Source of the DNA: Deltaproteobacteria bacterium
GTDB taxonomy: Bacteria; Bdellovibrionota_B; Oligoflexia; Oligoflexales; Bog-1112
Direction of reading: 5' to 3'
DNA: 59,474 bases
Assembly (NCBI GenBank): GCA_016186945.1
Contig: JACPKR010000019.1
Span: forward strand, 1 to 59,474
The notes beneath the pieces are model-generated. The model worked only from the letters and a program-made list of their open reading frames with translations, did no database searches and was not told the DNA's origin. Shown piece after piece: positions 17,093-59,474 of the stretch. Each line of letters starts with the position of its first letter. Position 1 is the stretch's first letter. The position numbers and the translations under genes are program-made.

Positions 17093-19492
17093 GTGAGGAC
17101 TTATCGTTTCATTTCAATTGCTTGCTTTCTCCTCCTTTTTTCTTGCGCTAAGGAGGAAAAACCCGAAACACGGGGAAAAGTCCATACAACAAGATTAGCC
17201 CCTGACCAGCCTACCCCGACACAAACACCAGAGGATAAGCAGGAAGTAGAAGAGGCAGAAACTGCGCCGCAAGAAGAGGAACCCGAAGAAGCAAAGGCAG
17301 ATCTATGCTCGGATCTTTCAAAGAACAAGCCTGCCGCGAACGGGACTTGGGCGAAAGAAACAGCCAACCCCCAAGAAACAGTTCAAGGCTCCTGCAAAAC
17401 CGACTATGTCGGAGACCTTTCCATAACATGCTCAGAAAAGGGGTGGGGTGAGATAACGGGAGTTTGCGCCTTCAATGGATGCGTCGACTTGAGCACCAGC
17501 AAGCCTCTCACCAACGCAGCCTGGCAAAGTAATCTTGCTGGCATAGACACCTCTGTCAACGCTACATGTAACTCTGGGTATCAGGGAACTCCGTCTGTTC
17601 AATGCAAGGAAGATCGAACTTGGGGCAACATCAGCGGAGGATGTACCCCAGAAGGCGCCTCACAGTGCGTTGACCTTACAAAAACCCGACAAGTTCCCAA
17701 CGGCGCATGGCCGAAAAACATGGAAAGTTCAGATTGGGGCGGCACTATAAACGGAACCTGCAATGAAGGATATAATGGAGATCCTTTTGTCACCTGTATA
17801 GATGGCACATGGTCAGAAATACATGGTACATGCGCACACGATTGCACCGATCTGGCAGCGAAAAAACCTCCTCCTGCACATGGCGTGTGGCTCGATGACT
17901 CGACCAATTCAGGCGCAACCGTTCCAGGACAGTGTCTGACAGAAGAAGGTTACCAGGGTAGTTTTTTCATCTCCTGTGAGGATGGAACTTGGGGAGATTC
18001 CATCGTAGGTGGTTGCACACCCGTCGGACAACAAGCATGTGTGAACCCACCACCCATCACGAATGGTTATTGGGGAAAACAGACAGCCGAATGGGGAGAG
18101 TCCCTACAGGGCCAATGCAACCCAGGTTTCTGGAGGGAGACGAATCCAACTGTGTCCTGTAAAGACGGAGTCTGGGAACCAAGCGAGATTGTGGTGCCAT
18201 GCGTGGCAGGTTGTACGTTTTCATCCCTTCCCGTCAAAGCAGGTCTGACCTGGCCGTCAAGTGACACCGGCACTCCCGCTGTCGAAGCGGGAAGATCCCT
18301 TACAGGTACTTGTGATGCAACTCAAGATTATCAAGGAACCCCCACCGTTAGCTGCCTTTTCAACCAAGGCTGGGGCACAGTCGCCGGAGCCTGTATCCAA
18401 GGGGACAAAAAATGCGACGATCCCCCTGAGTCAGGTATAGCGGGATTTCTTTCGTGGTCCGCTACGCAGGCTGGATGGGGCGAAGAGATCACTGGGAATT
18501 GTATCAACGAGTTCTATAGATGGGAAGGACTGAAAGCAAGTTGTAACTCCAACTTATGGACCATCTCTGGTTCATGTATGCCAAAATACGATCTGGCAGA
18601 GGGCGTTTATACCATCAAGCAATCCAGCACAATGCGAAATCTTCAGGCTTATACAGACGGCGATGCTCTCCATTTTTTCCATGCGTTCACCAGAACGCCT
18701 GTCGATTCGGACAACAGCCAACGCTGGTATTTGAAGTGGGTTCCTAACGAAGAAAACACGTACTATCTCAAACAAGTGTCGACGAACCGATACCTTGACG
18801 CTCACATCAACAGCAGAGACAACCTGGTTGTGACCAGAGATGGGACAACCGTTAATAGGAAATTCAAACTTATTCCCGTTGCTGGAACCAATCCCGCTGC
18901 CTTTGAAATTCAACAGGTGGCGTCAGGTTATTACTTAGATGCTTACGAAAATTACAACCACCTGTGGCAGGTCTATTTAACCACCGACTCATCTGGAAGC
19001 CATGTCGAATGGACCCTACACAATTATAATCAGTTGAATGGCACGTATTCTCTCAAACAAGTAAGTTCTAAAAAGTGGCTTGATGCTTGGACGGATTCCT
19101 CGCATGATTACCGAGCTGTGTTAAGTGGTTCAAGCCAAACTGATGGGACTCAATCGTGGTTCGATTCGACAAGCGGCGGCGGCGGCGACGACGTCCGTAA
19201 GACAATTGCGCAATACGCTGGCAACCTACTCATAGACTTCAATCGCAGGGGGCTCGTCGCGTACCTGTCCGGCTCTATGAAGGTAGTGACAAGGACGTCC
19301 CAGTCGGGTTCTAACGAGAACGGACAGTATTGGCAGACGGAGACAATAGTAGCTTCGCCCTGGAAGGGTAAAATAAAAAACTTAGCCAATAACCGCTACC
19401 TCACCGCTTGGGACACTGACTTCTTCGCGGCCGTCATGCGAAACCGCCAGAGCAATACATCGCAACACTGGATCGTTCAGAAAGTCCCCTAA
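17093..19492 (+). CDS. Large lipoprotein: seven CCP-like Cys modules plus beta-trefoil repeats
   Basis: GTG start behind GAGGGG. The lipoprotein signal ends LLLFSCAKEEK, then an acidic Pro/Glu linker (to about 70). Residues about 72-500 hold seven modules, each with four Cys and the pattern C-x-D-L ... NG-x-W ... G-x-C-x-x-G-Y-x-G ... C-x-x-x-x-W-x-x-x-x-x-x-C. This looks like complement-control (sushi) modules. Residues about 505-799 carry four or five repeats of Y-x-L-K-Q-V-S-x-x-x-Y-L-D-A ... Q-x-W, as in ricin-type or fascin-type beta-trefoils that bind sugars. It is probably a surface adhesin or lectin. The stop overlaps the opposing gene by 4 bp. Confidence 0.8.
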   Translation: MRTYRFISIACFLLLFSCAKEEKPETRGKVHTTRLAPDQPTPTQTPEDKQEVEEAETAPQEEEPEEAKADLCSDLSKNKPAANGTWAKETANPQETVQGSCKTDYVGDLSITCSEKGWGEITGVCAFNGCVDLSTSKPLTNAAWQSNLAGIDTSVNATCNSGYQGTPSVQCKEDRTWGNISGGCTPEGASQCVDLTKTRQVPNGAWPKNMESSDWGGTINGTCNEGYNGDPFVTCIDGTWSEIHGTCAHDCTDLAAKKPPPAHGVWLDDSTNSGATVPGQCLTEEGYQGSFFISCEDGTWGDSIVGGCTPVGQQACVNPPPITNGYWGKQTAEWGESLQGQCNPGFWRETNPTVSCKDGVWEPSEIVVPCVAGCTFSSLPVKAGLTWPSSDTGTPAVEAGRSLTGTCDATQDYQGTPTVSCLFNQGWGTVAGACIQGDKKCDDPPESGIAGFLSWSATQAGWGEEITGNCINEFYRWEGLKASCNSNLWTISGSCMPKYDLAEGVYTIKQSSTMRNLQAYTDGDALHFFHAFTRTPVDSDNSQRWYLKWVPNEENTYYLKQVSTNRYLDAHINSRDNLVVTRDGTTVNRKFKLIPVAGTNPAAFEIQQVASGYYLDAYENYNHLWQVYLTTDSSGSHVEWTLHNYNQLNGTYSLKQVSSKKWLDAWTDSSHDYRAVLSGSSQTDGTQSWFDSTSGGGGDDVRKTIAQYAGNLLIDFNRRGLVAYLSGSMKVVTRTSQSGSNENGQYWQTETIVASPWKGKIKNLANNRYLTAWDTDFFAAVMRNRQSNTSQHWIVQKVP

Positions 19493-21660
19493 TCTCCTTC
19501 CCCCAAAGGTGACGCTAAACTCTGAAGTCGTGTGAGAGCCGGAAGCTTTGCCTCCGCTTCACCGAGATGCCTTACACTCCAAGTCAAGCCTCCCCAGAAT
19601 TGAAAGGAATAGACAAGAACAAGCCCAGCGCCTGCAGCTCCCAAGTCCCCCTCGCGAACAGAACTCAGAAGGTACAGAACACTTGCGACAGAAACAGCAC
19701 CCGACAGCAAAGCTATACGCAGCATAAACCACCGGTTGAGCAGGACCATTCCCCACTGTGCTTTCTGGAAGTTTCGATATGCTGCGTAAAATTCATCGGC
19801 CGCAAGATGCGCGAGGGAGGCAAAGCTTTGAGCCTTATAGGTGAAGTACAAATTTCGATACCTGACCAAAGCCTGACGGTAACGCTTCTGCGCGAAATGG
19901 AAGAAAATGGCAGTAGGGACGATTAAAAAAAGAAGTTGCGGAAAAAAATAAAGTACCACGCAGAACGATAAGCTCACTATGAATGCTGACCGCACGGAAG
20001 CATTGAGCGAGCGAGGAAGAGCGTTCAGTACGATATTGAAGTCCGAGGAAAAACGACTGAGACGCGCACCCATCGGCTCTTTCTCCGTGTCGCTTGTGTT
20101 GACAAGCCCTGAGACCGCTCGGGTAAAAACGTTCTTAGCGACTCGCAACGCCAGATGTCTCCACACCATCTGCTGCCATCCAAAGAAACCTAAGGCAAGC
20201 AATCCCAGCACAAAATAGGAAACTAAGGCGAGTCTGTCGTTCTCCAACTTAATAAAATGTGAGATGACACCATGTTGTCCAATCGGCAGCATACTCGCGC
20301 CTAATGTTACTAGAACGGTGCCCACTCCCAAGAAAAAAGCACCTCTTTTTTTGTGATTTGCCTCCCAAAGCCAATCGAGGATTCGCTGTCGCTCTCTCGG
20401 GGGAGGCGACGCTTCACTCGCTCCCCGAACCCCCCTCTCCCTATTATTAGCGATGGTTCCCTCGCCCCCCCTCTCCCTATTATTAGCGACGGTCCTATTT
20501 ATGGCGGAAAAAAAGGTGTAAAGACGTTGCGCACTGACTTTCGACGCAGTCAGGTTACGGAGTTGCAAACCTAATTTTGTGAAGGGTTGCTCAATCGTGA
20601 CAAATAATGACAAGCAGGTAAAGACAAGCGGGGCGTCGAGTTTTTCATTTGCGAAATAGAGCAAGGCAAATGTTGTAGCCGCCAGACAAAAACTGGTCCC
20701 CATTCCAGCCATATTGGTGAACGCTTCCGCGAGAGCGAGCCGACGTCTTAAGCCTATTTCTTCGTCTAAGACCTGAGCTGCTTTCGTGCTTAGCTGTTCC
20801 CCTTTCAACGTCTGCTTGTCTCCTCCCTTAATTAGGTCTGCTAAAAAAGTGAGACGCTTCTCACTCTTTTGCAGCGTTTCCCGTTCCAGATGTCCCATCC
20901 GTCGGGATAGAAACTGGTAGAGGGGGAAAAGCATCAGCAGAACAAGAAAAGAGCCGACCGTCCACAAACCGATATGTGTCGCCAGGATCAGAAGCGTTCC
21001 CGCAATCAACAGCAAGCCATGCGCCAGTTCCAGGGCCACCCAGAAAGCATCGGCGACATTCTCCACATCTTCCGACGCATGGACTTGGACAGGGCCTGCG
21101 ATGTTTTGCGTTTCTTTCTGCCCCATTGTGTAAAGTTTGTGGAACAAATTGCAGGTGACGAAATGCGACGCCCTCTGTACGCCTCGGAAGGCGAAGACGT
21201 AATATGATTGCATGAGTGCAACTTGCAGGAACTGGAGAGTCACAAGACCCAACGACAGAACTAAGGGGAAGGACGACGCGGGTGTCGGCTCACTAAACTC
21301 GGTGAGCAAACGATGGAGAACCATAGGAGTGAAAAGCTGGCAGGCAAACAACAAAGCCAGCAAAAGCGACATGACCAGCGTTTCATGTTTCGTCTGAAGG
21401 AAAAGAGCTTTCCAAAGTTTACGTGTTGAGGACCAATCTACCCAAACTTCTGTATCTTTTATATAGCCTTTGAGAAAAAGAATTTGTGGAGAGGACCTTT
21501 TTTGAAAAAAAGTTCCCCTCCACGCCTCCCCCCAAAAAACTTTAGATATTGAAGTTTTTAAAAAGGGGCTTGGGGAAATAACTTTTTTCAAAAAGTTTTT
21601 CCCAAAATTGATTATCTTGAATACTATACCAACCTGGGATCGAGGGGGCAGCTCACGCAT
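19489..21660 (-). CDS. ABCC-like exporter with two membrane domains and no ATP-binding domains
   Basis: ATG 21660 overlaps the clpA stop (ATGCGTGA), suggesting coupling to clpS-clpA. The protein has two ABC-type six-helix membrane domains (about residues 95-390 and 450-700). TMD1 shows the order FRGVQRASHFVTCNLFHKL; TMD2 ends GGLTWSVRHLGEAEAKL, the usual lead-in to an NBD in ABCC exporters. No Walker A, signature or Walker B motif occurs: the first NBD site is replaced by a translated C repeat (20393-20495), and the chain stops where the second would begin. A family A repeat (21461-21628) is also translated near the N-terminus. Both insertions keep the frame. It may be a true NBD-less membrane protein or a recent ruin. 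Confidence 0.72.
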   Translation of the reverse strand: MRELPPRSQVGIVFKIINFGKNFLKKVISPSPFLKTSISKVFWGEAWRGTFFQKRSSPQILFLKGYIKDTEVWVDWSSTRKLWKALFLQTKHETLVMSLLLALLFACQLFTPMVLHRLLTEFSEPTPASSFPLVLSLGLVTLQFLQVALMQSYYVFAFRGVQRASHFVTCNLFHKLYTMGQKETQNIAGPVQVHASEDVENVADAFWVALELAHGLLLIAGTLLILATHIGLWTVGSFLVLLMLFPLYQFLSRRMGHLERETLQKSEKRLTFLADLIKGGDKQTLKGEQLSTKAAQVLDEEIGLRRRLALAEAFTNMAGMGTSFCLAATTFALLYFANEKLDAPLVFTCLSLFVTIEQPFTKLGLQLRNLTASKVSAQRLYTFFSAINRTVANNRERGGEGTIANNRERGVRGASEASPPPRERQRILDWLWEANHKKRGAFFLGVGTVLVTLGASMLPIGQHGVISHFIKLENDRLALVSYFVLGLLALGFFGWQQMVWRHLALRVAKNVFTRAVSGLVNTSDTEKEPMGARLSRFSSDFNIVLNALPRSLNASVRSAFIVSLSFCVVLYFFPQLLFLIVPTAIFFHFAQKRYRQALVRYRNLYFTYKAQSFASLAHLAADEFYAAYRNFQKAQWGMVLLNRWFMLRIALLSGAVSVASVLYLLSSVREGDLGAAGAGLVLVYSFQFWGGLTWSVRHLGEAEAKLPALTRLQSLASPLGEGD
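20393..20495 (-). repeat. C repeat, tandem form, inside the ABC-like gene (copy C3)
   Basis: Two direct copies of CCCCTCTCCCTATTATTAGC lie in tandem, preceded by a G-rich stretch with GGGGGAGGCGACGCTTCAC. They are translated without a stop as a linker rich in Asn, Arg, Glu and Gly (VANNRERGGEGT, then IANNRERGVRGAS), at the position where NBD1 of a full ABCC transporter would lie. Confidence 0.8.
21461..21628 (+). repeat. Family A repeat, plain-core form (copy A3)
   Basis: Complete copy: AAAAAGAATTTGTGGAGAGG at the left, core CTCCCCCCAAAAAACTTTAG, right arm GGGGCTTGGGGAAATAAC and GATTATCTTGAATACTATA. Its ends are TATAG and CTATA. Read on the minus strand it codes for about 55 residues without a stop, inserted after codon 10 of the ABC-like gene. 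Confidence 0.85.
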
Positions 21661-23977
21661 CTGCGAGAGCGTGAACTTGGTAGTCGAAGCTAAGCTGGTC
21701 ATTTTTGCAATCGACTTTCACGAAGCCACCTTTCGTCAAGTTTCCGAAGAGTAACTCGTTGACCAGGGGAGTTTTGACTTTCTCCTGTATGATGCGGGCG
21801 AGGGGACGCGCTCCGAAGGCAGGGTCGAACCCTGTTATTGCAAGGTAGCGACGCGCTTCGTCTGTAACTTCCCACTTTACTTTCTTAGATTTGAGTTTTA
21901 TTTCAACTTCCTTTAGGAACTTGTCCACAATTTTTAAGACAATGTCCTCAGGTAGGAAACCGAACGAGAGAACTGCGTCGAGTCGGTTTCGAAATTCAGG
22001 GGAAAATGCTTTCTGTATAGCTATCTTCTCTCCCCCTGCTTTATTCGCATTCCTATCGAAGCCGATCAAAGTCTGGCTCAGTTCCTTGGCTCCAACGTTG
22101 GTCGTCATGATGAGGATGACGTTTCGGAAATTAGCTTCCCGTCCGTTGGCATCTGTCAGCGTCCCGTGGTCCATAATCTGCAAAAGGATGTTATGGACGT
22201 CGGGGTGTGCCTTCTCTATCTCGTCGAGAAGCAGCACCGCGTGGGGGTACTTGTGAACGGCATCGGTCAAGAGTCCTCCTTCATCGTATCCTACATAACC
22301 GGGAGGGGCACCGATTAAGCGAGAAACGGTGTGCCGTTCCATATATTCGCTCATATCGTAGCGCAGAAATTCAATGCCGAGCTGTTGTGCCAGTTGCTTT
22401 GCCAGCTCGGTTTTTCCCACGCCTGTTGGGCCGGAGAAGAGGAAATTGCCGATCGGTTTTTCATCATTCCCCATCCCCGAGCGAGCCATGCGAATTGTAG
22501 AGACAAGGGTTTCAATGGCATGGTCCTGTCCGAAGACGTGGGCTTTCAGCTTCCTGTCGAGGTCTTTCAACGCGCGTTTGTCAGAGGAAGTAACAGATTC
22601 CGCAGGGACTCGGGCAATCTTCGCGACAATCTTCTTGACGTCGATAAGGGAGATGACCCGTTTCGGTGTATCTTTAGAAGCTTTTGCGGAAAAGTGTGCT
22701 CCGACTTCGTCGATCACGTCGATAGCCTTATCAGGGAGCTGTCGGTCCTTTATGTAGCGTGCCGAAAGTTCTACCGCTCCTCGCAGGGCTTCGTTCGTGT
22801 ATGACACATTGTGGAATTTCTCGTAATGCCGTTTTAATCCATGGAGGATTTTGACTGTTTCCTTTTCGGAAGGTTCGTCGATTGTAATTTTCTGAAACCT
22901 TCTATGGAGGGCATGATCCGTTTCGAAGTGCTGACGAAATTCCTTATAAGTTGTAGAACCTATGCAACGGATTTCACCTGACGCGAGGAAAGGCTTGAGG
23001 ATATTCGACGCATCGAGAGTCCCACCACTGACGGCTCCCGCACCTACAATGGTGTGGATTTCGTCAATGAAGAGGATGGCCCTGTCTATTTTCTTAACGG
23101 AACGGATGAGTTTCTTTAATCTTTCTTCAAAATCTCCGCGATATTTCGTCCCTGCCAGTAAGGCTCCCATGTCAAGAGAGAAGACGGAAGCATTTTTCAA
23201 GCTGTCAGGTACCTTATCCTCAGCTATGCGTGAGGCTAAACCTTCTGCAAGAGCGGTCTTACCCACACCTGAATCACCAACATAGAGCGGGTTATTTTTT
23301 CTGCGTCGGCATAGGACCTGGATCGTGCGTTCGATTTCGTTTTCTCGGCCTATGAGGGGATCTATTCTTCCTTCCCTTGCTTTTTCCACTAAGTCTTCTG
23401 CATAAAGAAAGAGGGCATCGTTCTTGTCAATTTTCTTTTTCGTTTTCTCGACGCTTCGTTCTTTAAGTTCCTTGTACGGTGAGTCCTGGGGAGCAATCAG
23501 CGCGTTTTCCGTCAAATTGTCAACGAGAGCTTGATCTACACCCTCCTTGATCACTCCATGAGAAATAAAGTTAACGACGTCGTATTGCGATATATTTTGT
23601 TTTTCCAGGAAATAACTCGCGTAGGTTTCTTTTTCTGCAAAAATGGCGACTAGTACAGAGTCGCCGTAAATTTTTTCCTTTCCGGCCGAGAGAACATGCT
23701 GTGCGGCTCGCCTGATCACTCTCTGGAAGCTCAACGTAGGCTGGGGTGACTCACTGGGGGGTAGGATATCTTTTTCCAAATGGCTGTCGAAGTAATTACG
23801 CAAGTCTTCATAGGTTTGCTTGACAGAACCGCCGCAGGCAAGGATCACTTTCATATAGGCGGCATCTTGCAGAAGAGCGAAGAGAAGGTGCTCGACGGTA
23901 AGGTATTCATGACCGTACTTCTTGGCTTCTTCTATGGCCAAGTTGAGGCTGACTTCCAACTCTGGGCTTATGATCAT
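21653..23977 (-). CDS. clpA: ATP-dependent Clp protease ATP-binding subunit ClpA
   Basis: Unfoldase that feeds ClpP. Clp N-domain (EEAKKYGHEYLTVEHLLFAL at the start), first AAA+ module with GDSGVGKTALAEG and LFIDEIHTIVGAG, second with GPTGVGKTELAKQ and LLLDEIEKAHPD, then the D2 small domain ending near FDPAFGARPLARIIQ. It lacks the long middle domain of ClpB, and clpS sits just upstream, so ClpA is the right subfamily. Length 774 is normal. SD GAAGGGGG precedes the ATG. The stop overlaps the ATG of the next gene. Confidence 0.97.
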   Translation of the reverse strand: MIISPELEVSLNLAIEEAKKYGHEYLTVEHLLFALLQDAAYMKVILACGGSVKQTYEDLRNYFDSHLEKDILPPSESPQPTLSFQRVIRRAAQHVLSAGKEKIYGDSVLVAIFAEKETYASYFLEKQNISQYDVVNFISHGVIKEGVDQALVDNLTENALIAPQDSPYKELKERSVEKTKKKIDKNDALFLYAEDLVEKAREGRIDPLIGRENEIERTIQVLCRRRKNNPLYVGDSGVGKTALAEGLASRIAEDKVPDSLKNASVFSLDMGALLAGTKYRGDFEERLKKLIRSVKKIDRAILFIDEIHTIVGAGAVSGGTLDASNILKPFLASGEIRCIGSTTYKEFRQHFETDHALHRRFQKITIDEPSEKETVKILHGLKRHYEKFHNVSYTNEALRGAVELSARYIKDRQLPDKAIDVIDEVGAHFSAKASKDTPKRVISLIDVKKIVAKIARVPAESVTSSDKRALKDLDRKLKAHVFGQDHAIETLVSTIRMARSGMGNDEKPIGNFLFSGPTGVGKTELAKQLAQQLGIEFLRYDMSEYMERHTVSRLIGAPPGYVGYDEGGLLTDAVHKYPHAVLLLDEIEKAHPDVHNILLQIMDHGTLTDANGREANFRNVILIMTTNVGAKELSQTLIGFDRNANKAGGEKIAIQKAFSPEFRNRLDAVLSFGFLPEDIVLKIVDKFLKEVEIKLKSKKVKWEVTDEARRYLAITGFDPAFGARPLARIIQEKVKTPLVNELLFGNLTKGGFVKVDCKNDQLSFDYQVHALADA

Positions 23978-59310: not shown

Positions 59311-59320
59311 GCTGTTGGCT

Positions 59321-59474
59321 AGATCCCGCGGTCAAGCCGCGGGATGACGGAAGCTAGATCCCGCGGTCAAGCCGCGGGATGACGGAAGCTGGATCCCGCG
59401 GTCAAGCCGCGGGATGACGGAAGCTGGATCCCGCGGTCAAGCCGCGGGATGACGGAAGCTGGATCCCGCGGCAT
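59321..59474. repeat. Tandem array of 35-bp palindromic units (runs off window)
   Basis: Four full units and part of a fifth, each GATCCCGCGG-tcaag-CCGCGGGATGAC plus a GGAAGCT(A/G)G joint. The palindrome is the same as the core of family A copies A1, A6, A7 and A8. There are no unique spacers, so this is not a CRISPR array. Confidence 0.9.

Follow-up and report, generated by a model that had tools for sequence, protein, structure and literature searches.

The frame that follows clpA in the stretch of DNA analysed here (the window, 59,474 nucleotides) encodes two membrane domains of an ABC exporter and no ATP-binding domain, which raises the question of whether it is a gene that has recently died or a membrane protein that works without ATP. 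We tentatively favor, at a probability of about 0.47, the reading that a lineage of ABCC exporters lost both nucleotide-binding domains (NBDs) and that the fused pair of transmembrane domains (TMDs) was retained as a membrane protein independent of ATP. The features of the locus are collected in Table 1.

Membrane domains and their borders

The frame runs uninterrupted for 737 codons from its first ATG. The original prediction had recognized the same open frame and began it at 21660, which is the second ATG and gives 723 codons. In Pfam, the protein matches ABC_membrane (PF00664) in two stretches (45 bits against a cut-off of 28) and has no match to ABC_tran; when the listing was followed up to E = 1, the only other match was a sub-threshold Peptidase_M50. 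A phmmer search against solved structures returned SUR1, YCF1 and MRP1, all ABCC proteins, as the best matches (best E 4e-20), and TMD1 and TMD2 were matched to ABCC structures separately, over residues ~19–321 and 441–654 of the translated protein, P0001. The MRP model of NCBIfam matches at E 6e-16, yet far below the model cut-off. The protein thus carries ABCC-like PF00664 exporter TMDs, in the predicted ABCC order, and lacks what marks an ABCC full exporter, namely two NBDs with Walker A, signature and Walker B, and conserved coupling loops.

To place the domain borders, the protein was aligned with 16 intact ABCC-like exporters of its order and class. RLYTFFS closes TMD1 and RLQSL closes TMD2, and these are the points where the NBDs begin in the 16 relatives, in agreement with the prediction that both NBDs are missing and that each TMD ends at an NBD border. 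The core of a dispersed repeat, family C, occupies the place of NBD1 together with a partial second copy, as had also been proposed, while no repeat was found at the junction where NBD2 is missing (19489–19515). The hydrophobic segments correspond to those of the intact exporter of a family relative (G006, below), and the N-terminus is short compared with those of the relatives. A tblastn search over 12–30 kb of the window gave no NBD remnant near the locus (best E 0.04), and the ABC_tran loci examined in this genome include no orphan ABCC-type NBD. The codon scores of the TMDs lie inside the range of other window genes, a weak discriminator given that one antisense frame equals TMD2. Structure prediction, for the protein alone and with one relative, reached a mean pLDDT of 44, too low for questions of fold or loops.

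Table 1. Features of the clpA-linked locus, in window coordinates
Feature	Position	Strand	Basis or remark
Lipoprotein-like gene, convergent, with Sushi (CCP) repeats and ricin-B-like domains	17093..19492	+	ORF list, Pfam
NBD-less ABCC-derived ORF	19489..21702	-	Open frame; Pfam ABC_membrane, no ABC_tran
Tail ASPLGEGD and stop, in place of NBD2	19489..19515	-	4-nt overlap with stop of convergent lipoprotein gene
TMD2, elbow helix to RLQSL	19516..20388	-	Structure matches, alignment, hydrophobic segments
Last coupling loop of TMD2	19777..19857	-	15 residues shorter than in 16/16 intact relatives aligned; borders approximate
Linker in place of NBD1, mostly family C repeat and partial second copy	20389..20505	-	
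Family C repeat core	20398..20445	-	Best copies match at 96%; 40 or more places in genome
TMD1, elbow to RLYTFFS	20506..21438	-	Structure matches, alignment, hydrophobic segments
Second intracellular (coupling) loop of TMD1, degraded	20773..20892	-	Has lost the IRxxKxxxWE motif and a net 2 residues; borders approximate
Family A element, 167 bp, MITE-like, consensus ends TATAGTATT...AATACTATA	21462..21628	-	5/167 off consensus
Candidate start ATG	21658..21660	-	Overlaps clpA end (stop 21653-21655) as ATGCGTGA
clpA, upstream gene	21653..23977	-	ORF list, Pfam

Dispersed elements and the start of the frame

Element A has the characters of a MITE or RPE-like element: it is short and dispersed, has terminal inverted repeats (TATAGTATT) and leaves no room for a transposase. 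Across the genome, family A gives 150 scored matches. Its insertion probably duplicated a TA target, in which case the net insertion would be 165 bases, or 55 codons. Rickettsia palindromic elements are likewise MITE-like repeats, of about 150 bp, inserted in frame in genes (PMC10969869); they differ from element A in sequence and host, and translation of element A is only putative. Judged by their divergence, 3% for element A against its consensus and ~4% for repeat C against its best copies, both insertions are recent.

The family A element reported near the N-terminus is therefore real, and its translation, claimed along with it, is uncertain. The element would be translated only from ATG 21660, ATG 21702 or a TTG within it at 21591, while the first in-frame ATG past it, at 21372, stands at the beginning of TM1. 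None of the three ATGs (21702, 21660 and 21372) is preceded by a Shine-Dalgarno-like sequence. Since the same element elsewhere lies at or upstream of gene starts, it is uncertain whether the protein begins at 21660, with element A translated, or at 21372, with element A as a leader. Other copies in the genome stand fused to the beginning of an MsbA-like exporter frame (L157:3559-3671), within an 883-codon frame that belongs to no known family (L158:1704-1844), ahead of an evident lipoprotein signal in an M16 peptidase gene (L159:2147-2344) and at the beginning of an Omp85-type frame (L160:2405-2502).

Two insertions that leave 700 codons open had been taken to indicate retained function, an argument that proved weak. 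Element A is open in the frame used here in 76% of 38 sampled copies, a sample picked by protein similarity and hence biased toward open copies, and its openness appears to be largely a property of the element itself. On these copies, and on the M16 peptidase gene, where the element stands ahead of the lipoprotein signal, openness of element A was rejected as a sign of selection. We also simulated neutral change on the 660-codon core, with substitutions only (indels would lower the values). The probability of meeting no stop was 0.48 at 1% divergence, 0.08 at 3%, 0.035 at 5% and 0.005 at 10%, so that the core often survives recent drift. Because the insertions are recent, at 3–4% divergence, a frame that has stayed open since then says little on function.

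An intact counterpart and the loss of coupling loops

By its named relatives, the genome belongs in Oligoflexales or close to it. A genome of the same family, G006 (JABSRF010000116.1, Oligoflexales MAG DT_79), carries motA-motB-clpS-clpA followed by a 1222-residue ABCC exporter with both NBDs and both Walker A motifs, whose start overlaps the end of clpA in the sequence ATGA. Gene order in the window is the same. Its own junction, ATGCGTGA, bears out the short ATG overlap with clpA that had been predicted, with a reading-frame offset from clpA that differs from that in G006. In a TMD tree with the 16 relatives, the window protein falls beside G006 (support 73). Because G006 holds an intact exporter at the same place after clpA, the NBD-less state is, on this comparison, derived rather than ancestral; the synteny evidence comes from this one relative. 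In a genome of the same genus (G001; L114, contig 501), clpA is followed after ~200 bases by secDF, without the exporter and without either of the two lipoprotein-like genes; the one at 17093–19492 is thus missing from the corresponding locus.

No ABCC exporter follows clpA in five other family members, and a scan with clpA for further linked exporters returned the G006 record only. Scans of genome contigs and of plasmids gave no relative of the window protein, nor did an orthologue of the NBD-less form turn up. Among 58 genomes of the class there was no other two-TMD frame without an NBD, the shorter frames having one TMD only or lying at contig ends. The original prediction had named two observations that together would speak against it, intact NBDs in close relatives and neutral decay at this locus; the former was seen, in the family relative G006, and no decay is visible at the locus.

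The terminal branch of the window protein in the TMD tree measures 1.94 substitutions per site, compared with at most 1.02 in the 16 relatives, and no stop has arisen across its 660 codons. Conservation in the TMDs is lowered throughout, and not in the loops alone. The four loops that contact the NBDs keep 12 of 42 conserved positions versus 31 of 56 elsewhere (Fisher p = 0.013); with a 60% conservation threshold, the counts are 14/64 and 47/93 (p = 0.0004). Similar values come from a second alignment (p = 0.015 and 0.0005), and the bias is not significant at the strictest threshold of 90% conserved columns (p = 0.11 and 0.18). In the intact relatives, loop and non-loop positions are lost at about equal rates. 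The test was not fully blind, as the idea followed sight of the loop gap and motifs were used to place the loop borders; a 15-residue deletion, possibly one event, contributes part of the effect. That deletion lies in the last loop, and each of the other three has lost a few residues.

Function, decay and comparison with known systems

The strongest competitor, which we consider plausible and somewhat less probable than retained function without ATP, is a recently dead gene: a fast-evolving exporter that lost NBD1 by recombination at repeat C and NBD2 by deletion or by arrival of the lipoprotein gene, with stops yet to accumulate. The recency of both insertions fits this account, as do the simulated chances of staying open (0.48 and 0.08 at 1% and 3%), the complete absence of the gene from the same-genus genome and the short N-terminus. 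It accounts less readily for two cuts that both fall at domain borders, for a long branch without a stop, and for the loop-specific loss with its 15-residue deletion, which suggests that uncoupling preceded a good part of the divergence. In the simulation, the probability of no stop is at most 0.005 from 0.1 substitutions per site upward, and neutral change down to ~40% identity would be expected to leave about 21 stops in 660 codons; were the excess length of the TMD branch neutral, some 20 stops would be expected. Much of the TMD divergence could, however, predate a recent loss of the NBDs. The long stop-free TMD branch and the concentration of loss in the loops suggest retained function better than the openness of the elements does, and suggest, short of proof, that the gene is not just dead and that its protein has come to work without ATP.

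Other accounts of the missing NBDs appear improbable. Split TMD/NBD arrangements are known among YddA-type exporters (PMC13316013), and stand-alone ABC ATPases are present in this genome, so NBDs encoded elsewhere might serve the TMDs, as the original prediction had entertained. Because the coupling loops that would contact such partners are degraded, this role is disfavored; additionally, the closest stand-alone NBD examined is only 31% identical to ABCC NBDs, and no such ATPase gene adjoins the frame. Slightly less probable still is an artefact of the draft assembly, in which two copies of repeat C were joined without the NBD1 between them and a misjoin removed NBD2. Misjoins classically occur at repeats, and the assembly has 76 contigs; against this, the NBD2 end is without a repeat, the loop deletions are independent of repeats, and an ABCC-type NBD left orphaned by a misjoin was absent from the ABC_tran loci examined.

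Under the favored reading of retained, ATP-independent function, the ancestor would have been a clpA-linked ABCC-type exporter of the order TMD1-NBD1-TMD2-NBD2 that lost both NBDs, leaving two fused TMDs that are presumably still made and working. Judged from SbmA and from the MsbA membrane domain stripped of its NBD, the fused pseudo-dimer would most likely work by alternating access and draw on a gradient of ions or substrate. What drives it is guesswork, since a search of the hydrophobic segments found no gained acidic ladder; their one acidic residue is at a position that is acidic in many relatives too. Element A would have arrived later and been tolerated in the cytosolic N-terminus or leader, and repeat C, in the inter-domain linker, may be a scar of the NBD1 deletion.

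Proteins with ABC TMDs and no NBD are already known, and the window protein adds a fused, ABCC-type variant with two TMDs. The proton-driven SbmA/BacA (SLiPT) family is believed to have descended from full ABC exporters that lost their NBDs and coupling helices (PMC13316013). The window protein shares with it the lack of an NBD and kinship to type IV ABC exporter TMDs. SLiPT proteins, however, consist of two single-TMD protomers that carry an extra TM0 and a glutamate ladder, whereas here two ABCC-type TMDs are fused, no gained acidic ladder was seen, and the Pfam match is to PF00664 only, not to a SbmA/BacA-type family, placing the protein by sequence outside SLiPT. The coupling helices are degraded and shortened but still partly present. 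Its losses nonetheless resemble the presumed origin of the SbmA family from an ABC exporter, here in a fused ABCC-type pair. The membrane domains of MsbA and LmrA (MsbA-MD, LmrA-MD) are likewise exporter TMDs without an NBD and show transport driven by a proton gradient, which in MsbA persists with a pH gradient (PMC4979069); those are laboratory truncations of a half-transporter, unlike this natural fused pair. The ABCC full exporters of Oligoflexales (G006, G009 and others; kin of MRP1, SUR1 and YCF1) have the same TMD1/TMD2 order and domain borders and, in G006, the clpA linkage, and differ in having both NBDs and intact coupling loops.

How an ATP-driven exporter becomes a secondary transporter has so far been considered mainly for SbmA. 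A locus at which one relative has the intact exporter, another an NBD-less form with degraded loops and a third no gene would make the steps testable. A more far-reaching reading, which we regard as less likely than not, is that the window protein is an independent instance of this conversion, caught partway: a natural single-chain ABCC descendant with two fused TMDs that shed both its NBDs, together with much of its coupling loops, and now acts as an ATP-independent transporter or channel, while a relative still has the intact counterpart at this locus. Should the gene prove to be dying, it still shows dispersed elements at the borders of exporter domains. A separate repeat lies near the end of the window, where 59318–59457 form a tandem array of 35-base units, GATCCCGCGGTCAAGCCGCGGGATGACGGAAGCT, whose palindromic core also occurs singly at ~994, 38777, 40984 and 45042.
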